Below, piece by piece: positions 1,943 to 32,136 of a DNA stretch of 33,027 nt. The stretch comes from Lachnospiraceae bacterium. Lineage in GTDB: Bacteria; Bacillota; Clostridia; Lachnospirales; Lachnospiraceae. The position numbers and the translations under genes are program-made. The notes beneath the pieces are model-generated. The model was given only the letters and a program-made list of their open reading frames with translations, had not been told where the DNA came from and made no database searches. The stretch covers positions 1 through 33,027 of the forward strand of contig JAILPR010000204.1 in the NCBI GenBank assembly GCA_024699355.1, given 5' to 3'. The number at the start of each line of letters is the position of its first letter. Positions within the stretch are counted from its first letter, which is position 1.

Positions 1943-1975
1943 AGATCACCCCCCGTCTTCTTGTGATCTCTGTTT
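1941..1975 (+). terminator. Probable terminator of the HAD gene
   Basis: Perfect 9-bp inverted repeat AGAGATCAC…GTGATCTCT followed by a short T-containing tract, immediately after the stop codon. Confidence 0.5.
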
Positions 1976-2029
1976 GCGCCGTACCGGTTCTACTAAAACA
2001 GGGAGCCCGAAGGACAATGTCATCTACAT

Positions 2030-2089
2030 CAAAAAAGGAGCCCTTGGACAATGTCATCTAAACTACGTGACTTTGCCCAAGGGCTCCCT
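2030..2089 (-). terminator. Terminator downstream of the lipoprotein gene, possibly bidirectional
   Basis: Perfect 11-bp arms ggagcccttgg (2037-2047) / ccaagggctcc (2077-2087), with TTTTTT following on the minus strand. Confidence 0.7.
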
Positions 2090-2164
2090 TTCTATTCTGC
2101 CTGTTGCAGATCGTTCTCTTTTATTAGATTTCTATGAGATTCGTTAGATTCATCCGTCTTTGGA

Positions 2165-3292
2165 TCAGTCCATCTTTTCGAATACGAAATCGGTATCTAC
2201 ACCATCCAGACCCGGCATGGTCATGGTCAGTGTGCCATCATTTAACACACCGTCTGCTTCATCACCATCATCGCTGGTCAGTACCATCTCTGTACCGTCT
2301 TCACTGACAGCCCAGGTACCTGTAGTGGTGTAATCCTCTGCAGTGCCAAGGCTTCCTGCGATCTCATCAGCCAGCTGTACTTCCAGATCTGCCTTTAACG
2401 CTTCATAAGATTCATATCCGCTATTCTGTGCGATCAGCTCCAGTTCTTCTTCCGTTGCGCTCTCAATACCTGCAATGTTAAGAATGATCGCATCGATATT
2501 GTTGACAACATCTTCCTGGAATTCCATTGCCCAGCTCTCTACATCCGCAGTCATCACGAAGGTCTCATCATCGTTGATGTCCAGCGTATACTGCAGATAA
2601 TAAGACTCTTCTCTCCCAATGGAAAAGCCCATCATATACTCCAGCGCTCCCGGCGTGATCTCATAAGCGCCTGTATAGGTACCTTCCACGTTACCGGAGA
2701 TCAGGCTTGCACCAATGCTCTCTACGTTCTCTTTGATCACTGCCGCAAAGTCTTCCAGCCAGTCTTCTTCCAGATCACCGCTGAAGGTCATCGCATCCTT
2801 GTTGGAACGATCCAGGGTAAAGTCACCGCTGAAATCATCGGAAGTAAAGCTTACGGTGTGATCCTTTGCTTCATAAGTACCTTCGTACTCTTCATCTTCC
2901 TGTGCATCGATGTACTCTTTTAATACGGTCTTTAATTCGCTCTTCAGTTCCTCCTGATAAGCATCGAAATCTGCATAATCCGCTGCAGCGATCTCATTTG
3001 CTTCCAGAACCGCAGTTGCCGGAACTTCGATCTGATCCAGGACCAGATCCATCATCTCTTCCAGTGCTTCGGTCTTTTCTACGGTATAAGTAGCGTTCTT
3101 CTCTTCACCAAGCTCTAACGATGCATTTACGGTAAATGCAGCATCCTCGAATGCATAGCCTGTTTCGTCAGCCAGAAAACTATCGAACGAAAGCTCTTCG
3201 GTATAGTCGCCCGCTACGGAACCGCAACCTGACAGCATGGAAACTGCAAGTGTTGCAACAGTGAAAATTACAGCCAGTTTCTGTTTCTTCAT
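2165..3292 (-). CDS. Secreted acidic lipoprotein of unknown function
   Basis: Start placed at MKKQKLAVIFTVATLAVSMLSGCGS (signal peptide plus lipobox LSGC) with RBS AAGGAGGAG 7 nt upstream. The ORF track extends it 25 codons too far. Mature protein very rich in D/E. Confidence 0.85.
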   Translation of the reverse strand: MKKQKLAVIFTVATLAVSMLSGCGSVAGDYTEELSFDSFLADETGYAFEDAAFTVNASLELGEEKNATYTVEKTEALEEMMDLVLDQIEVPATAVLEANEIAAADYADFDAYQEELKSELKTVLKEYIDAQEDEEYEGTYEAKDHTVSFTSDDFSGDFTLDRSNKDAMTFSGDLEEDWLEDFAAVIKENVESIGASLISGNVEGTYTGAYEITPGALEYMMGFSIGREESYYLQYTLDINDDETFVMTADVESWAMEFQEDVVNNIDAIILNIAGIESATEEELELIAQNSGYESYEALKADLEVQLADEIAGSLGTAEDYTTTGTWAVSEDGTEMVLTSDDGDEADGVLNDGTLTMTMPGLDGVDTDFVFEKMD

Positions 3293-3296
3293 AAAA

Positions 3297-3343
3297 AAAC
3301 TCCTCCTTATATGATGTCTGTTTTGACACACAAGGAGGAGTTT
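3297..3343 (-). promoter_or_regulatory. Perfect 12-bp inverted repeat overlapping the lipoprotein Shine-Dalgarno (candidate RBS-sequestering hairpin)
   Basis: Minus strand: AAACTCCTCCTT-(23 nt)-AAGGAGGAGTTT followed by TTTTATG. Arms at 3332-3343 and 3297-3308. Confidence 0.6.
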
Positions 3344-3384
3344 AAAATACTTAGAAAAAAATGTCAAGTTTTTTAAGTATTTTA
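3343..3384 (-). terminator. AT-rich inverted repeat at the end of fba (weak terminator or operator)
   Basis: TAAAATACTTA (3343-3353) / TAAGTATTTTA (3374-3384); overlaps the fba stop codon. Encloses a TTGACA-like -35 on the minus strand. Confidence 0.4.
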
Positions 3385-4230
3385 CGCTTTACCATCACAG
3401 CCGCAAACTTTCATTCTGCCCATCACCAGCTGCTTTACGGCTTCCATACCGACTTTGCCGAGTGCCTTGGGATCAAAGGTCTCCGGCTTTTCTTTTAACA
3501 GTGCCTTGCCTGCATCCGTGTAAGCCACACGCAGCTCGGTTGCAAAATTGACTTTGCTGATGCCGCGGGAGACACAGTCTGCCACATCACTGTCGCTGAT
3601 GCCGGAAGCACCGTGCAGTACCAGGGGGATCGATACTTTTGCCGCGATCTCGGAGAGTCTCTGCTTATCGAGTACCGGAGTACCTACATAAAAGCCGTGT
3701 GCGGTACCGATCGCCACTGCCAGAAAATCAACGCCGGTCTTTTCCACGAATTCCACCGCTTCACCGACATCGGTATGCGTATCCATATCGTCGGTCACAT
3801 CATCTTCTTTTCCGCCGACGCGACCAAGCTCTGCCTCTACCGGAAGGTTCTTTCCATGACAATACTCTACGACCTTTTTGGAAACAGCGATGTTTTCTTC
3901 AAACGGAAGCTTTGAACCATCGATCATAATGGAGGTATACCCATTCTCCACGCACTCCACAGCCAGCTCATAGCTGCTGCCATGGTCTAAATGAAGTGCT
4001 ACCGGAACGCTTGCCTTCTGCGCCTCTGCCTTGACGATCGCCGCATAGGTTGCGGAATTGCCGTATTTAATGGTACTCGGTGTCGTCTGGATCATGACCG
4101 GTGCCTTCAATTCCTCTGCCGCCGCAATGATCGCCTTGACCATTTCCATGTTTTCCGCGTTAAATGCGCCAACCGCATATCCGCCTGCTCTTGCATCTGT
4201 TAACATCTTTTTCGAATCAACTAATGGCAT
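3382..4230 (-). CDS. fba: Class II fructose-1,6-bisphosphate aldolase
   Basis: MPLVDSKKMLTDARAGGYAVGAFNAENMEMVKAIIAAAEE, PVALHLDHGSS, TGVDFLAVAIGTAHGFY, LVLHGASGI. Start set at MPLVDS (RBS gaggagg), not the upstream ORF start. Confidence 0.95.
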   Translation of the reverse strand: MPLVDSKKMLTDARAGGYAVGAFNAENMEMVKAIIAAAEELKAPVMIQTTPSTIKYGNSATYAAIVKAEAQKASVPVALHLDHGSSYELAVECVENGYTSIMIDGSKLPFEENIAVSKKVVEYCHGKNLPVEAELGRVGGKEDDVTDDMDTHTDVGEAVEFVEKTGVDFLAVAIGTAHGFYVGTPVLDKQRLSEIAAKVSIPLVLHGASGISDSDVADCVSRGISKVNFATELRVAYTDAGKALLKEKPETFDPKALGKVGMEAVKQLVMGRMKVCGCDGKA

Positions 4231-4346
4231 AGTAAACCTCCTCTTGTCTTCAAAGCGAACCGTTTCGCTCATCTTGTACCTTTATTATACTGTATCTTTT
4301 CAAAAATGTAACCCCTCTTTGACATTTTTTTCACACAAAACGATCT

Positions 4347-4379
4347 AAAAAAACGTTGCGCACCGTTTGGTACGCAACG
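4347..4379 (-). terminator. Rho-independent terminator of the HD-GYP/FapA operon
   Basis: Minus strand CGTTGCG-loop-CGCAACG followed by TTTTTTT. Confidence 0.75.
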
Positions 4380-4392
4380 CTTAGAATTGATT

Positions 4393-5466
4393 TTAGATCA
4401 GTTCTGCCGTCAGACGCTCGAAATCTTCTCTGACCAGTCTGAAGCAATTGATCAGCTTTGGATTAAAGACGCCGCACTCGCCGTTTAAGATCATGCGATA
4501 GGCTTCATCCGACGTATAAGCGCCTTTGTAGACACGTTCGCTGACCAGCGCATCATAGACATCCGCAATGGATACGACCTGCGCCGACAACGGGATCTGA
4601 TCGCCGACCAGACCGTCCGGATAGCCTTTTCCGTCATAACGCTCATGATGACTGCGCGCGATCTCTAAGGAATAGCGCATATAGTCATTGCTGTCTTCTT
4701 CGCTTAAGACATGCTCGATGATCTCTGCGCCGTGCAACGTATGTGATTGCATCACCTGACGCTCTTCATCGGTCAGACGCGCCGGCTTTAAGAGGATCTT
4801 GTCCGGGATCGCGATCTTTCCGATATCATGCATTGCAGAAGCATAACTGATATTATCGATGTCCTCATCGGTCAGGCCAAACTCCGGATAACACATCGCC
4901 ACGGTTTTGATCAGCACCTTGGTAAGCTCCCGCACACGCAGGATGTGATTGCTCGATTCGAGATTACGGAACTCCACAACCGTACCCAGGGTGTCGATGA
5001 TGTGATAGTTCATCTCCTTGATCCTGCGGTTCTGCTCCTGGATCTTTTTGGTCTGCTGATCGACCAGATCTTCGAGCTGGTTCTTATGCGCCCACAGTTC
5101 GATCAGATTCCGGATCCTCTTGCGGATGACAAACGGATCATACGGCTTATCCACAACATCGCTTGCCCCCAGGGAAAATGCTTTTTCCTTGGTCTCCATC
5201 GCCGTATCTCCGGTGATCATGACAACCGGCATCTCTTCCATATAGTCATACCGGATCATATACTCCATCACCCCGAAGCCGTCGACCTTCGGCATGATGA
5301 TGTCCAGCAGCACTGCCGAGATCTCATCCCGGTGTTCCTCCAGCTGGTGGATCGCCTCTTCGCCATCGACTGCCTCAAGGACCTCATATTCATCCTGAAA
5401 CAGTCTGCACAGCAGCTTTCTGTTCGTATCCTGATCTTCTACAATTAATATCGTACCGTTTTTCAT
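4393..5466 (-). CDS. Response regulator: REC domain plus HD-GYP domain (putative c-di-GMP phosphodiesterase)
   Basis: REC: ILIVEDQ, LLDIIMPKVDG, VVMITGD, DKPYD. HD-GYP: MHDIGKIAIPD and HHERYDGKGYPDGL. True start MKNGTILIVEDQ at 5466; ORF track start is upstream. Confidence 0.92.
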   Translation of the reverse strand: MKNGTILIVEDQDTNRKLLCRLFQDEYEVLEAVDGEEAIHQLEEHRDEISAVLLDIIMPKVDGFGVMEYMIRYDYMEEMPVVMITGDTAMETKEKAFSLGASDVVDKPYDPFVIRKRIRNLIELWAHKNQLEDLVDQQTKKIQEQNRRIKEMNYHIIDTLGTVVEFRNLESSNHILRVRELTKVLIKTVAMCYPEFGLTDEDIDNISYASAMHDIGKIAIPDKILLKPARLTDEERQVMQSHTLHGAEIIEHVLSEEDSNDYMRYSLEIARSHHERYDGKGYPDGLVGDQIPLSAQVVSIADVYDALVSERVYKGAYTSDEAYRMILNGECGVFNPKLINCFRLVREDFERLTAELI

Positions 5467-21929: not shown

Positions 21930-22733
21930 TTATTTGGATAATAAAATGCGATCGTTGTCGAGTCGCTCGCCGGCACGGATCTTAAACTGCTCGAGCAGAT
22001 CATCCACCGTCATATGCGCTCTCTCCTCTCCCTGTACATCCAGAATGATATCTCCGCCATCCATCATCAGGGTACGATTGCCAAGTTCTAACGCCTGGTG
22101 CATGTTGTGAGTGACCATCAGACAGGTGATCTGTCGATCTGCCACGATCTTTTTGGTCAGCTCCAGCACCTTTTGTGCCGTCGCCGGATCCAGTGCTGCC
22201 GTATGCTCATCAAGCAGCAGGATCTTCGGAGTGACCATCGTCGCCATCAGCAGGGTGAGTGCCTGACGCTGCCCTCCGGATAAGAGGCCGACCGGATTTT
22301 TCATACGATCTTCCAGACCCATATCCAGCTGCGATAACTGCTCGCGAAAGAGCTTCTTTTCCGCTTTCGTAATGCGCGAGAAGAGCTGTCCTTTGCTCTT
22401 ATTGGCACGCAGATACGCCAGTGCCATGTTTTCCTCGATCGTCATATGCGGTGCCGTTCCCATCAGCGGGTCCTGAAAGAGGTGCCCGATGTCACGGCTT
22501 CGGAGGTGTTCTGCTTTATAGGTGATGTCTTCGTGATCGAGGATCACGCGTCCCTCATCGACATAGAAGGCTCCTGTAATGGCATTAAAGAGTGTCGATT
22601 TGCCGGCACCGTTGCTGCCGATGATCGTGGCGAAATCACCCGGTTTTAAGTGAAGCGATACCTTACGCAGGGCGACTTTTTCATTGATCGTGCCGGGATG
22701 AAATGTTTTACTGATCTGTTGTAATTCCAGCAT
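21930..22733 (-). CDS. ABC transporter ATP-binding protein (putative tryptophan/aromatic amino acid importer)
   Basis: IIGSNGAGKSTLFNAITG (Walker A), GLLSGGQRQALTLLMA (signature), KILLLDEHTAALDP (Walker B). Confidence 0.92.
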   Translation of the reverse strand: MLELQQISKTFHPGTINEKVALRKVSLHLKPGDFATIIGSNGAGKSTLFNAITGAFYVDEGRVILDHEDITYKAEHLRSRDIGHLFQDPLMGTAPHMTIEENMALAYLRANKSKGQLFSRITKAEKKLFREQLSQLDMGLEDRMKNPVGLLSGGQRQALTLLMATMVTPKILLLDEHTAALDPATAQKVLELTKKIVADRQITCLMVTHNMHQALELGNRTLMMDGGDIILDVQGEERAHMTVDDLLEQFKIRAGERLDNDRILLSK

Positions 22734-22734
22734 C

Positions 22735-23670
22735 CTACTGCCCTGCCTTTCTGCCCCGCTCTGTCAGGCGTCTCTTATAAAAGTCCATATTCCCTTTGAA
22801 ATACGGTACAAAGATCGCAACCGTAACGATCACCGCACTGGCCAGTTTCAGTGCTTCCGCCGGTAAGTTAAACCGCAGCGCGATCGCAACGATGATACGA
22901 TACAGGCAACTGCCCAGGACCACGCCGATCGCCCGCCTGAAGATGCTTCCGCGGCGGATCAGAGTCTCTCCGATCATGAGAGATGCCAGTGCGATCGTCA
23001 CCTGGCCGGTACCGAAGTTGATATCGCAGGATTTTTGATACTGTGCAAGGATCGCACCCGAAAGTGCGGTCAATGAACCGGAAACGCAAAGACCGACTGT
23101 AATGGTAAAGGCCGGATTGATGCTGGAGGCTTTGACCATGTGCTCGTTATCGCCCGTTGCACGGATGCTCAGTCCCAGCGTGGTATTTAAGAACCAGTGC
23201 AAAATCAGGCAGATCACCAGCACGATGACCAGTGCGATCACCAGTTTATACAATGTCTTGTATGTTTCCGCTTCACTGACTTCTTTGGCCAGAGAAAAGA
23301 TCGTGTCCACGCCAAAAATATTGACGTTGGAAGATCTTCCCATGACCAGAAAGTTGATGGTATAGAGTCCGGTATTGACAATAATGCCGGCCAGAATGGA
23401 CTGGATGCCCATTCTGGTCTGCAAAAATGCGGTGATAAAACCGGAGAGCACGCCGACCAGCATAGCTGCCGGCAGTGCCAGGAAGGGATGTCCCATCGTC
23501 GTCACGACTGCACCTGTCGCACAGCCTAAAGTAAAACAGCCGTCCGTCGACAGATCTGCAATATTCAAAATGGAAAAGGAAATGTACAACGCCAGTGCGA
23601 CCAGCGCATAAATACAACCCAGTTCCAATGCGGTCACAATGACCGATGTACTAAAAATCGATGCCAACAT
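22735..23670 (-). CDS. ABC transporter permease (BPD_transp_2 type)
   Basis: MLASIFSTSVIVTALELGCIYALVALALYISFSILNIADLSTDGCFTLGCA…; start at 23670 with RBS ggagg. Confidence 0.9.
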   Translation of the reverse strand: MLASIFSTSVIVTALELGCIYALVALALYISFSILNIADLSTDGCFTLGCATGAVVTTMGHPFLALPAAMLVGVLSGFITAFLQTRMGIQSILAGIIVNTGLYTINFLVMGRSSNVNIFGVDTIFSLAKEVSEAETYKTLYKLVIALVIVLVICLILHWFLNTTLGLSIRATGDNEHMVKASSINPAFTITVGLCVSGSLTALSGAILAQYQKSCDINFGTGQVTIALASLMIGETLIRRGSIFRRAIGVVLGSCLYRIIVAIALRFNLPAEALKLASAVIVTVAIFVPYFKGNMDFYKRRLTERGRKAGQ

Positions 23671-23726
23671 CTCATCCTCCGTCCCAAATCGTTCCAAAGC
23701 CGCCATCGGCTTTGCCTGTCTGTTTC

Positions 23727-24845
23727 TTATTCAAACTCTTCTGCGGTGATGGTTTCTTTTAACTCGGAAGCCATCTCCTCAAACATACTATACTCCAAAT
23801 GGATCGCTTCTGCAGTCTCTGTGTTGACGGTAACGATACCGTTGTCCATCAGGCGTACCGGACAGGTCGCCGGATCGGCACCGTTGACCAGGATCTCTAC
23901 GACCATATCCGCGGTAACCACACCAAGATCCGCATAGTTAACACCATAGCCGACAAAGGCACCGTTTAAGGCAAAGGAATCAGCGCCTGCATAGTGCGGG
24001 ATGCCTGCTTCGATGAATTTCTCATAGATGGAAAGTTCTGCGGTCATGATCGTATTGTCGGTCGGGGTAAATACGGCTTCCACACCGTCTGCAACCAGTG
24101 CATCCGCTGCCAGGGCAACTTCATCCACGGTGGTACCGGTCTTCTCGATCACTTCCACACCCTTCTCTTCGCAATATGCTTTAGCATCCGCTACCGGAAC
24201 CTTGGAAGCATCTTCACTGCTGTTGTATAACAGGCCGACCTTTGTGATGTCCGGATTTGCTGCAAACATCAGATCCATAACAACTTTGGTATTTAATGCA
24301 TCGGAAGTACCTGTGACATTGCTGCCCGGTGCATCAAGACTCTCTACCAGACCTGCGGTGACCGGATCGGATACTGCGGAAAATACGACCGGGATCTGAT
24401 TGTCCTCGGTTGCCGCCTGCATGATGACTGCAGTCGGAGTTGCGATCGGAACGATCACGTCCACTTCATCCGCAACCAGCTCTGCTGCGATCTGATTTAA
24501 GGTCGTCGCATCTGCCTGTCCGTTAAAGGTATAGTCTGCATAATCAAAGGTCACACCAAGCTCTGCGCCCTTGGCATCGAGCTCTGCTTCGATGTTCTGT
24601 TCGATCTGATTTAAGGATGCGTCATCGACATACTGTACGATACCGACTTTGTATACCGCACCTGCTTCTGCGGCTACGCTCTCGCCGGTTTCCTCCGCAG
24701 CGCTCTCTGCTGCCTCACTGCTCTCTGCCGCCTCAGCACTTTCTGCCGGTGCGGATGCTGCACTGTCAGCACTTTCGCCGCAGCCTGCCATCAGGCTCAT
24801 TGCCATCATCAGACTCATGATACTTGCTACTGCTCTTTTTTTCAT
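23727..24845 (-). CDS. ABC transporter substrate-binding lipoprotein (ABC_sub_bind/TrpX-like)
   Basis: MKKRAVASIMSLMMAMSLMAGCGES signal and lipobox; VYKVGIVQYVDDASLNQIEQNIEAEL…, IPVVFSAVSDPVTAGLVESLDAPGSNVTGTSD. Start corrected to 24845 (RBS aggagga). Confidence 0.9.
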   Translation of the reverse strand: MKKRAVASIMSLMMAMSLMAGCGESADSAASAPAESAEAAESSEAAESAAEETGESVAAEAGAVYKVGIVQYVDDASLNQIEQNIEAELDAKGAELGVTFDYADYTFNGQADATTLNQIAAELVADEVDVIVPIATPTAVIMQAATEDNQIPVVFSAVSDPVTAGLVESLDAPGSNVTGTSDALNTKVVMDLMFAANPDITKVGLLYNSSEDASKVPVADAKAYCEEKGVEVIEKTGTTVDEVALAADALVADGVEAVFTPTDNTIMTAELSIYEKFIEAGIPHYAGADSFALNGAFVGYGVNYADLGVVTADMVVEILVNGADPATCPVRLMDNGIVTVNTETAEAIHLEYSMFEEMASELKETITAEEFE

Positions 24846-24882
24846 AATGTTTCCTCCTGCTCTTTGTTTCTTGTAACCATAT

Positions 24883-25175
24883 AAAAACGCCTCAATCGAC
24901 ATTGCTATCGATTGAGGCGATCTATAACATAACCGCGGTACCACTCAACTTGGTGTAACACCCACTGAATTCACGTACTATCATACATGCCACGCTGGTA
25001 ACGGGTGTGGTCCCCGTCGGAGCCTACTTTTACTTCGGTCCGCCCTCGAAAGGCCATTCCATATCTTTCTCCGCATCGCAATCCCACCGCCTGCGACTCT
25101 CTGTCCGGTTCCCGATATGTACTCCTCTTTCTCATCGGTTTCATCCATATGATTGATGATCACTCATCTGTTCTT
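24883..25175 (-). ncRNA. T-box riboswitch leader with terminator; likely Trp (UGG) specifier
   Basis: Minus strand contains GAGAAAGAGGAGTA, AGAGAG, GGTGGG, GAA-TGG-CCTTTCGAGGGC, T-box AGTTGAGTGGTACCGCG (about 24933-24951), then terminator CGCCTCAATCGA-TAGCAATG-TCGATTGAGGCG-TTTTT. Confidence 0.9.
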
Positions 25176-25946: not shown

Positions 25947-27317
25947 CTATTTGATAAACATCAGCAGCATGATCATCGCAAACCCGGTGACAAAAGCAAA
26001 TGCCGCGCTGTCATTGTCTTTTTCTCCCACCATCATCGGCAACTCTTCGATCGTCGTATAGATCATCGCGCCGCCGGCCATGACCATGATATACGGGAGG
26101 GATGCCGGAACGAGGATGATCACCAACAGGATAAAGACGGCGACAAGCGGCACCGAAATACCGGAAACCACGCCCATAAAAAAGGCTTTTCCTTTGCCGG
26201 TTCCCTGTTCCATCACCGGCATTGATACAAACAAAGCTTCCGGAAAATTCTGAATGGCGATCGCAAGTGCCAGGAAAAAAGCGGTAGAGGCAGGAATATA
26301 AGCTGTCTGCATAAAATGTCCCGCATAGATCGCGCCTAAAGCAATCCCTTCCGGCACATGATGGATCAGCTCTGCCAGCATCATTTTGGTCTCCGGATTC
26401 AGACTGCTCCTTAGGCCTTCCGTGATCTCCACAAACGCATGCGTATGCGGCACCAGACTATCCAGCACATACTGGATCGCGATGCCTGCGCCAAAGCAGA
26501 CCGCAAGGGATAAGATCGCCTGTTTCCCTTCCACGGAAAATCCGCTTGCTGCCGGCTCGATCATGCCCCAAACGGACACCGAAAACATGATGCCGGCACT
26601 GGCTCCTGCCATGAGCACACGCACTTTTTGCGACAGTTTCTGCTGCTTGGCATAGACAAATGCCGCGCCGAGCACGGTACCGATCAGCGGGATCAGCATT
26701 CCGAACAGTGTATCCGAATCGCTCATCGCTCCGTTGGTATCCAAAAATTCGATCAGTGTCTTCAGTCCGATAAAGATCAGGATCGTACCGCCCATCACTT
26801 CGGAACCGGACTTATACCGTATGCCGAACAGGTTCCCGATCTTCACGCCGATCCCCGAGATCAGGAACGTCACCACGGCGATGACTGCAACGCCAAATAG
26901 GGTATTCTGTAGTTTACCGGCATCCAGTACCTCGATCGGCACCGCCACAAATGTAATGCCGACCGCCAGTGCATCAATGCTGGTAGCCACTGCCATCATG
27001 AACATCGTTTTGATCCCGAAGTCGTCCTTTTCCTCTTCTTCATCTTCGGAAAGTGCTTCACGGATCATATTGGCACCGATCAACGTTAATAACACAAACG
27101 CCACCCACGGTGCAACGATCCGGATCCACCGTTCAAATCCGGAGCCGACAAGATATCCGACAAGTGGCATGATCCCCTGAAAGGCACCAAACCAGATCCC
27201 ACAGATCAGACTTTCTCTGATCGTCAGTTTTTTGACTGCAAGCCCTTTACAAATGGATACCGCAAATGCATCCATGGAAAGTCCCACAGCAAGCAACAAC
27301 AGTTCAAATATTCCCAT
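25947..27317 (-). CDS. Putative fusion transporter: N-terminal MntP-like (DUF204) domain plus C-terminal ZIP-family domain
   Basis: Residues 1-190: LLLAVGLSMDAFAVSICKGL … AVATSIDALAVGITF (two MntP halves with Asp). Residues about 200-456: MLIPLIGTVLGAAFVY, LIHHVPEGIALGAIYAG, AIQNFPEALFVSMP, MIYTTIEELPMM (ZIP). One uninterrupted 456-codon ORF. Confidence 0.85.
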   Translation of the reverse strand: MGIFELLLLAVGLSMDAFAVSICKGLAVKKLTIRESLICGIWFGAFQGIMPLVGYLVGSGFERWIRIVAPWVAFVLLTLIGANMIREALSEDEEEEKDDFGIKTMFMMAVATSIDALAVGITFVAVPIEVLDAGKLQNTLFGVAVIAVVTFLISGIGVKIGNLFGIRYKSGSEVMGGTILIFIGLKTLIEFLDTNGAMSDSDTLFGMLIPLIGTVLGAAFVYAKQQKLSQKVRVLMAGASAGIMFSVSVWGMIEPAASGFSVEGKQAILSLAVCFGAGIAIQYVLDSLVPHTHAFVEITEGLRSSLNPETKMMLAELIHHVPEGIALGAIYAGHFMQTAYIPASTAFFLALAIAIQNFPEALFVSMPVMEQGTGKGKAFFMGVVSGISVPLVAVFILLVIILVPASLPYIMVMAGGAMIYTTIEELPMMVGEKDNDSAAFAFVTGFAMIMLLMFIK

Positions 27318-27365: not shown

Positions 27366-27404
27366 AAAAAAGCAGCATATAATTGTAACATTATACACTG
27401 CTTT
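27366..27404 (-). terminator. Terminator of the aldo/keto reductase gene
   Basis: Minus strand AAAGCAGTGTATAAT-GTTAC-AATTATATGCTGCTTTTTT, about 15-bp stem with two G-U pairs, then T run. Confidence 0.75.
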
Positions 27405-27422
27405 CCCACAAACTTATAGTCT

Positions 27423-28397: not shown

Positions 28398-28470
28398 GCT
28401 TCTCCCCTGTTTCTTTCTGATGTTGCGATCCGTTTTCAAATCCGCTGTTGCTCTGTTTCCTGCACTGTTC

Positions 28471-30148: not shown

Positions 30149-31309
30149 TTACAATGCCGCAAGTTCCTTCGCAAGTTCCTTGATCGCTTCTTTGGTCTCC
30201 GGTTTTACCGTAGAGATCATTTTAACTTCTGTTTCAAGTACGGTGATATTCTTCATCGCACCCAGATACTCTTTCATGACACGGGAAGCCGTCGGTGCCC
30301 AGGAACCGTTCTCAATGATCGCTACCGTGCGGTTCTGATAGGTCTTTGCACGCAGATGCATCAAAAACTCTTCCATCGGCGGGAATACACCGCCGTCATA
30401 GCTTGCCGCCGCAAGGACCATACGGTCATAACGAAACGCATCTTCCACCGCTTCCGCCTGATCATCGCGACTCAGATCGGTGATCGCCACCTTCTTAACG
30501 CCCGCCTCTTTCAGTTCCTTCGCCATCAGCTTTGCAGCCTCCGCGGTATTGCCATGGATGGAAGCATAGGCTACCAGTACGCCGTGATCCTCCGGTGCAT
30601 AGCTGCTCCAGGTATTGTATTTTTCGATATAATACGACAGATTCTCATCCAGTACCGGACCGTGCAGCGGCAGGATCTTTTGGATCGTCAGTCCTGCTGC
30701 CTTCTTTAACAGGGTCTGTACCGGCATGCCGTATTTCCCGACGATATTAAAGTAGTAACGTCTCGCTTCGCAGGCCCAGTCTTCTTCGATATCCAGTGTC
30801 CCGAATTTGCCGAAACCATCTGCCGTAAACAGTAGCTGCTCCGACTGCTCATAGGTCACCATGACCTCCGGCCAGTGCACCATGGGCGCCATGAAAAACT
30901 GCAGCGTGTGTGCACCGAGTGATACGCACTCACCTTCTTTGACCGTTACCTGCTCCTGCGAAGATTCCAGGAAATTCGGCAGCATCTGAAATGTCTTGGC
31001 ATTGCCGATCAGCGTCAGTTTCGGATAAACGTTCAGCAACGCTTTGATCGATCCGGAATGATCCGGCTCCAAATGAGAGATGACCAGATACGTCGGCACC
31101 TTTTCCCCGAGCACTTCCTTCAGGTTTGAGAGCCACTCTTCTGTTTTATGCGCATCCACGGTATCCATAATGGTGATCTTATCATCCAGGATCACATAGG
31201 AATTATAGGATACCCCGTTTGGTACCTCATACTGGCTTTCGAACAGATCGATCTCATGATCGTCGACGCCGACATACTTCACTGCTTCCGAAATTTCCAC
31301 CTTATTCAC
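30149..31309 (-). CDS. FprA-family A-type flavoprotein (flavodiiron protein)
   Basis: Beta-lactamase-like diiron domain (ISHLEPDHSGSIKALL, MVHWPEVMVTYEQSEQLLFTADGFGKFG) plus flavodoxin domain (VAYASIHGNTAEAAKLM). Confidence 0.94.
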   Translation of the reverse strand: MNKVEISEAVKYVGVDDHEIDLFESQYEVPNGVSYNSYVILDDKITIMDTVDAHKTEEWLSNLKEVLGEKVPTYLVISHLEPDHSGSIKALLNVYPKLTLIGNAKTFQMLPNFLESSQEQVTVKEGECVSLGAHTLQFFMAPMVHWPEVMVTYEQSEQLLFTADGFGKFGTLDIEEDWACEARRYYFNIVGKYGMPVQTLLKKAAGLTIQKILPLHGPVLDENLSYYIEKYNTWSSYAPEDHGVLVAYASIHGNTAEAAKLMAKELKEAGVKKVAITDLSRDDQAEAVEDAFRYDRMVLAAASYDGGVFPPMEEFLMHLRAKTYQNRTVAIIENGSWAPTASRVMKEYLGAMKNITVLETEVKMISTVKPETKEAIKELAKELAAL

Positions 31310-31345
31310 GTTACGCTTTCCTCCTTGTCAGTTACGGTACATAGA

Positions 31346-31885
31346 TTAATAGTTTTCTTCGTGTACCTCGAAGAATGCCTGCGGATGCAGGCAAACCGGA
31401 CAAACCTCCGGTGCCTTGGTGCCGACAATGATATGGCCGCAGTTTCTGCACTCCCATACCTTGACTTCGCTCTTTTCAAATACCTGCGCGGTCTCCACAT
31501 TCTTGAGCAGCGCACGATATCTCTCTTCATGATGTTTCTCGATGGCAGCAACCATGCGGAATTTGGCAGCCAGTGCCTTAAAGCCTTCCTCTTCCGCGGT
31601 CTTTGCAAAGCCTTCATACATATCGGTCCACTCGTAATTTTCACCTTCCGCTGCTGCCTTCAGGTTTTCTGCGGTGTTGCCGATCCCGCCAAGTTCCTTG
31701 AACCAAAGCTTTGCGTGCTCTTTTTCATTGTCCGCGGTTTTCTGGAATAACGCAGAGATCTGCTCATATCCCTCTTTTTTTGCTACCGATGCAAAATAGG
31801 TATACTTATTACGTGCCTGAGATTCACCTGCAAAAGCGGCCTCCAAATTCTTCTCGGTCTGTGTTCCTGCATACTGATTACCCAT
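31346..31885 (-). CDS. rbr: Rubrerythrin
   Basis: [33 protein letters not shown]-type EKHHEERY, C-terminal rubredoxin-like [27 protein letters not shown]. Start corrected to [13 protein letters not shown]. Confidence 0.96.
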
Positions 31886-32136
31886 CGTAATTCTCCTTTC
31901 ATCTTCCTGAATTGTTTGTGATCTTCCCCTGTCACATCCAAAAAAGTGCACTGCGTCATGCACAGCGTTTTTGCGATAGAATAAAGCAAAACCGCTATAT
32001 TGACCTTACCTTATGGGAGCATTTTTTGCAATATTTGGCTCATTAAAAGTGTATTAAATTATTGCACAGTTCGATAGGATAAACTTAAGAATACACGCAA
32101 CTTACAACGTGTCATATTGCAAAAGGGAGGGCCGAT

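Follow-up and report, generated by a model that had tools for sequence, protein, structure and literature searches.

Metal balance in bacteria is normally described in terms of separate importers and exporters that are separately controlled. On the export side, the described system closest to the locus analysed here is the Mn(II) exporter MntP, family PF02659 (TC 2.A.107) of the LysE superfamily. Escherichia coli cells that have lost MntP contain more Mn and are depleted of loose iron (PMC4361602), and PMC9603457 reports that mntP and alx of E. coli are up-regulated under Mn shock through their riboswitches. The other closest system is the ZIP transporter BbZIP, for which the roles of the sites M1 (transport), M2 and M3 (release) have been described; its residues I174 and V215 block M2 from the cytoplasm, I174 being a hydrophobic plug below M2, and disruption of M2 lowers transport only modestly (PMC11549095). 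At the pore entrance, S106 of BbZIP is equivalent to the selectivity-filter residue Q180 of ZIP8 (PMC10372143).

The window, that is the whole stretch of 33,027 nucleotides that was analysed, carries a gene in which these two families meet. The first-pass annotation had read a continuous 456-codon ORF as an MntP-type exporter joined to a ZIP-family transporter. This ORF proved to be real but coded on the minus strand, with its codons running from 27317 to 25950 and its stop at 25949-25947; the plus-strand frame over 25947-27317 is riddled with stops. The features of the locus are as follows.

25947..27317, minus strand: coding sequence of the fused MntP-ZIP protein, 456 aa, conserved at full length in about 75 other loci
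26742..27317, minus strand: MntP half, residues 1-192, six predicted TM helices, predicted N-out/C-out (Pfam Mntp, 138 bits; helices of the model)
27272-27270 and 26975-26973, minus strand: codons of D16 and D115 in the MntP half, both invariant in the fused proteins
26718..26741, minus strand: junction, residues 193-200 (DTNGAMSD), predicted extracytoplasmic
25950..26717, minus strand: ZIP half, residues 201-456, eight predicted TM helices (profile and fold matches)
26358..26372, minus strand: ZIP TM4 site E316-L-I-H319-H320, where H319 corresponds to BbZIP H177 (M1), H320 to N178 (M2) and E316 to I174
26151..26153, minus strand: V389, at the position of the M2 ligand E240 of BbZIP, which is lost in derived fusions
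27370..27405, minus strand: perfect hairpin with a T run after it, seen on folding the gap that separates the fusion gene from the aldo/keto reductase gene upstream; probably the terminator of the latter

On the window protein, the Pfam model Mntp (PF02659) gave 138.1 bits (E 2.7e-40, residues 30-187), passing its curated score of 24.4. The MntP repeat motifs with the transmembrane Asp residues (GLxMDAFAV and TSIDALAVG) are invariant in all fused members, and in the AlphaFold2 models this half has six TM helices in about 190 aa, as in the MntP family; no credible match to it was found among solved structures. All the sequence tests made place it in the MntP family, and export of Mn(II) is predicted. 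The C-terminal half is a divergent ZIP. The Pfam model Zip (PF02535) scored 26.2 bits against a gathering score of 35.1 on the window protein, and several fusion orthologues reach the curated score, either by themselves or when every stretch of the frame is counted; NCBIfam ZupT scored 80.3 bits (E 1.3e-22, residues 212-451), below its equivalog cut-off of 252. The profile of the fusion family matched the BbZIP structures with an E of about 1e-29, and the AlphaFold2 model of the whole protein (mean pLDDT 81), whose helices split into 6 + 8 TM spans, fitted the best of the BbZIP crystal structures with TMt of 0.85-0.89. Both family assignments of the first-pass annotation were thus borne out, and the motifs that it had quoted (D16, D115, H319-H320-V-P-E-G, Q356-N-F-P-E and E424/E425) sit at the residues given for them. 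In the model, both termini of the MntP half and of the ZIP half would lie on the outside, so that end-to-end joining would be possible without an extra helix.

A scan of GTDB species genomes found about 70 full-length relatives of the fusion (47-77% identity), all or nearly all of them in Lachnospiraceae. Many of these relatives come from the rumen, and the isolates with the fusion include Lachnobacterium bovis DSM 14045, Butyrivibrio spp. and Eubacterium ruminantium. None of the 74 aligned relatives, isolates included, has an indel in the junction stretch (residues 186-206), which is of constant length, and about 75 other loci have the whole fusion as a single ORF. An assembly artefact or frameshift is therefore ruled out, and the two-transporter fusion first seen on one contig is genuine. 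Because indels are rare over the whole fused protein in the 74 aligned sequences, the constant length of the junction is weak evidence of coupling between the halves. Among the sampled genomes, 10 of 299 Lachnospiraceae carry the fusion, and no full-length fusion was found among about 395 genomes from the rest of the phylum. Presence varies within the genus of the window genome: the genome G236 has a standalone MntP, and no fusion was detected in it. A second fusion candidate, in the genome G498 (locus L183), was rejected, since the long frame around its ZIP is a chimeric frame through masked bases.

The neighbouring genes differ between fusion loci, with no conserved operon context. In three loci a canonical standalone ZIP gene directly adjoins the fusion gene (L032:6863-7648, L035:6864-7649 and L049:1019-1816). 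In the window, genes of oxygen and peroxide defence lie near the fusion gene (a flavodiiron-type protein and an adjoining rubrerythrin, together at 30149-31963, minus strand), and a T-box leader (RF00230, 110 bits) at 24910-25144, minus strand, is directly upstream of genes for a TrpX-like substrate-binding protein, an ABC permease and an ATPase (21930-24944), an ordinary amino-acid importer under T-box control whose substrate is probably tryptophan.

In a tree with 51 standalone ZIPs, the fused ZIP halves group together as a single separate, long-branched clade (99% SH-aLRT). The fused MntP halves also form one clade, with support 99/97, which includes two MntP-only proteins nested within it (L099:5001-5615 and L100:1517-2131); a topology in which only the fusions make up the clade was not rejected (p-AU 0.138). 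From this nesting it appears that the ZIP half can be lost, and it suggests that the two MntP-only proteins probably lost theirs later. One fusion event within Lachnospiraceae is apparently the simplest account. Adjacent mntP and zip genes were considered as its source and were not seen beside any standalone MntP locus examined.

The dN/dS values were 0.02-0.09 for both halves in nearly all close pairs tested, with one ZIP value of 0.23; strong purifying selection acts on both. The fusion usually replaces the standalone MntP: no other strong MntP was found in nine of the ten fusion genomes, and 238 of the 289 non-fusion genomes have a strong standalone one (Fisher p 2.7e-6, or 2.9e-4 with high-quality genomes). 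Being the only strong MntP in nine genomes out of ten, it appears to do the job of MntP. On the other hand, a separate standalone ZIP is present in all ten (the copy in the window genome is partial, at a contig end), so that the cell has another ZIP and the fused one is an additional, altered paralogue.

To compare the metal sites, residues were mapped to BbZIP from an alignment with the fusion profile and counted over 80 fused and 50 standalone ZIPs. The M1 ligands M244, H319, E323, Q356 and E360 (BbZIP M99, H177, E181, Q207 and E211) and the M3 ligands D286, H291 and H293 (BbZIP D144, H149 and H151) are kept in 80/80 fused proteins, and E425 (BbZIP E276) in 79/80. The M2 ligand set (N178, D208 and E240) is not present in the fused ZIP. 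At the N178 position (H320) all 80 fused proteins have His and all 50 standalone ZIPs have Asn; D208 aligns with N357; and the E240 position is Ile, Val or Thr in 75 fused proteins and Glu in five basal fusions, as in 49/49 standalone ZIPs with a residue there. The plug position I174 (E316) is Glu in 79/80 fused proteins and Val or Ile in the standalone ones, and BbZIP M140 in TM3 aligns with Gln282 (79/80 fused), which is Leu in the standalone ones. The pore-entrance position S106 is Gly in 75/80 fused proteins and Ser in 50/50 standalone ZIPs, with a new Glu254 nearby. Two oddities for which the window protein had been called atypical are therefore features of the family: the Asn of HNxPEG is replaced by His (80/80 fused, 0/50 standalone), and the Gly that follows the TM5 Glu is replaced by Ala (76/80 fused, 0/50 standalone).

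Intact M1 and M3 sites are not what a dead domain would show, and the pattern points to a domain that was remodelled rather than decayed, for which a changed substrate or gate would be an explanation. As M2 disruption in BbZIP has only the modest effect mentioned above, the loss of M2 does not imply a loss of transport. Because evolution rewrote M2 while M1 and M3 stayed intact, the fused ZIPs are a natural test of the disputed role of M2 in ZIP transporters, with the basal members as intermediates.

No riboswitch was found upstream of the window fusion gene, either by Rfam or by the family covariance model with filters off (best 3.9 bits), and a loose match to the riboswitch pattern near 28407 (minus strand) was discarded because it falls where the aldo/keto reductase gene has its start region. 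The earlier remark that no yybP-ykoY element precedes the gene is thus right for the window but not for the family. In the genomes of nine relatives, whole-genome Rfam searches placed an RF00080 match immediately before the fusion gene and on its strand, at 20-33 bits and so below the Rfam gathering score of 45 bits. These leaders carry the exact GGGGAGUAG (L1) and GUCAACAUAC loops, with AACAUAC as the L3 loop, within a paired core. With a family covariance model built from the leaders of fusion genes and standalone MntP genes, a yybP-ykoY element was found upstream on the same strand at 22/76 fusion loci, 15/22 standalone MntP loci and 0/27 standalone ZIP loci; an element of this type also precedes both MntP-only relatives. 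Compensatory changes are present in 14/27 pairs, and most leaders inspected have a terminator-like stem and T run between the aptamer and the start codon. This points to MntP-type Mn control of the fusion gene in many relatives. The element spans fusion members from the basal L092 to derived ones and is absent from the window gene and its closest relatives; it appears to be ancestral to the fusion and to have been lost in the window lineage.

Such short elements, scoring 20-33 against a threshold of 45 bits, are missed by annotation pipelines. They are also common before the standalone mntP genes of Lachnospiraceae and neighbouring families (e.g. L023:1351-1461, L019:1254-1369 and L159:1319-1429), and of these three leaders the whole-genome Rfam search of the family found only that of L023 (28 bits against 45), so Rfam probably under-counts the class in Lachnospiraceae. 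Two loci have a second strong match (91 bits) to the Mn riboswitch model, at L066:1058-1163 and L054:1312-1417. In L066, some 4 kb upstream of the fusion gene, the match is followed directly by an ABC exporter-like pair, an ATPase (1162-1956) and a large permease (1950-4658), which is possibly an Mn-controlled ABC system.

We propose, with a probability of about 0.45, that the fused protein is an Mn-inducible dual transporter, whose MntP half would export Mn(II) and whose ZIP half would import a different metal. One polypeptide of 14 helices would then amount to two transporters. The MntP half (6 TM) would export Mn(II); the ZIP half (8 TM, of the elevator type), with its substrate-binding M1 and cytoplasmic M3 release site kept and its M2 and pore entrance rebuilt, would most likely import a divalent metal other than Mn. 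Under the Mn riboswitch, ancestrally and still in many relatives, both activities would appear at high cytosolic Mn and jointly raise the Fe (or Zn):Mn ratio. A gene that high Mn switches on would not be expected to bring in more of it, and taken with the intact transport sites and the altered selectivity sites, this makes a different imported metal the most economical account. It is a tentative further step, somewhat short of even odds, to see in the protein a single-chain device for Mn out and another metal in, with a new metal path in which His and Glu stand for the M2 Asn and the hydrophobic gate. As to the imported metal, Fe(II) is our first guess and Zn(II) our second, both resting on physiology: iron would be favoured because Mn excess in the E. 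coli mntP deletion mutant depletes loose iron. Transport by both halves, its directions and metals, and any mechanical coupling are what we infer from sequence and models. The metal-exchange reading offered in the first-pass annotation has become more plausible through the riboswitch upstream of 22 relatives, its direction and metal staying at the level of inference. Pointing the other way are the two MntP-only proteins, the riboswitch-free window gene and the genome G236, which has a standalone MntP and in which no fusion was detected.

The substitutions at M2 and at the pore entrance would fit a ZIP half that binds metal without moving it just as well. It would then be a regulatory domain, with metal at M1/M3 and no useful transport, that switches or stabilises the MntP half, a reading which we consider unlikely but which deserves serious weight. 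It fits the dismantled M2 site, the change of the entrance S106 to Gly in most members, the constant junction length and the existence of MntP-only relatives; PMC10256678, too, describes an inhibited inward-facing state of BbZIP and an intracellular autoregulation of zinc uptake. The sensor role suggested at first is nevertheless weakened, since all M1 and M3 ligands, E323 and E360 among them, are kept in essentially every member, and loss of M2 in BbZIP leaves most transport in place (PMC11549095).

It is distinctly improbable that the ZIP half imports Mn(II) itself and forms with the MntP half a two-way Mn valve balanced by affinity or gating. No Nramp Mn importer was found in the ten fusion genomes, so that another importer is needed, and Mn transporters exist in the ZIP family, e.g. 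ZIP8 (PMC10372143); but these genomes have an ordinary separate ZIP, and the riboswitch type of the relatives raises expression at high Mn, a condition under which taking in Mn would do harm and the cycle would be futile. A shade more doubtful still is a ZIP half turned exporter, working in the same direction as MntP and widening the range of exported metals. The gene is regulated like an efflux gene, and the altered gate (Glu at I174) and M2 site could change the direction of transport; the M3 release site kept on the cytoplasmic side suits import instead. To our knowledge a ZIP-type exporter has no bacterial precedent. We give the least credit to a neutral joining of two independent transporters with nothing new beyond co-expression. 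No result points to coupling between the halves, and with indels rare throughout, the constant junction proves little. This account is at odds with a fused ZIP that differs from standalone ZIPs at fixed sites in or near the metal path and forms a long-branched, separate clade, from which it follows that it has changed after its split from the common ZIP stock.

If the dual-transporter reading is true, two metal pools would be coordinated by one gene. A conserved fusion, often behind an Mn riboswitch, suggests that some rumen or gut Lachnospiraceae may answer Mn excess by exchanging metals and not by export alone. Our literature search, with most subscription journals outside its coverage, found no published description of an MntP-ZIP fusion, and a survey of the LysE superfamily does not mention fusions; the combination is a new arrangement of known families, though the architecture may have been noticed before.

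Compared with the standalone MntP proteins of Lachnospiraceae, the MntP half is 55-66% identical and in many relatives has the same Mn riboswitch type upstream; it differs in running on into a ZIP domain and in a fused-specific G171, where 24/24 standalone proteins have Lys or Arg. The riboswitch of the relatives shares with yybP-ykoY (RF00080) the two exact loops, a covarying paired core and an intrinsic terminator before the gene, in an element that is shorter and scores 20-33 bits. With the ZIPs of the GufA/ZupT/BbZIP type (PF02535) the second half has in common the eight helices, the BbZIP fold and all M1 and M3 ligands. It departs from them in N178 to His, E240 to Ile/Val/Thr, I174 to Glu, Leu to Gln282, the entrance S106 to Gly and the new Glu254, as well as in being joined to MntP and, in 22 relatives, in standing behind an Mn riboswitch. 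By fold and M1/M3 ligands, and not by M2, it is a ZIP, for which import into the cytosol is predicted. BbZIP (5TSA/5TSB/8J1M and others), the best structural match to the model with TMt up to 0.89, is, unlike the fused protein, a single-domain homodimer whose binuclear M1/M2 centre is intact.
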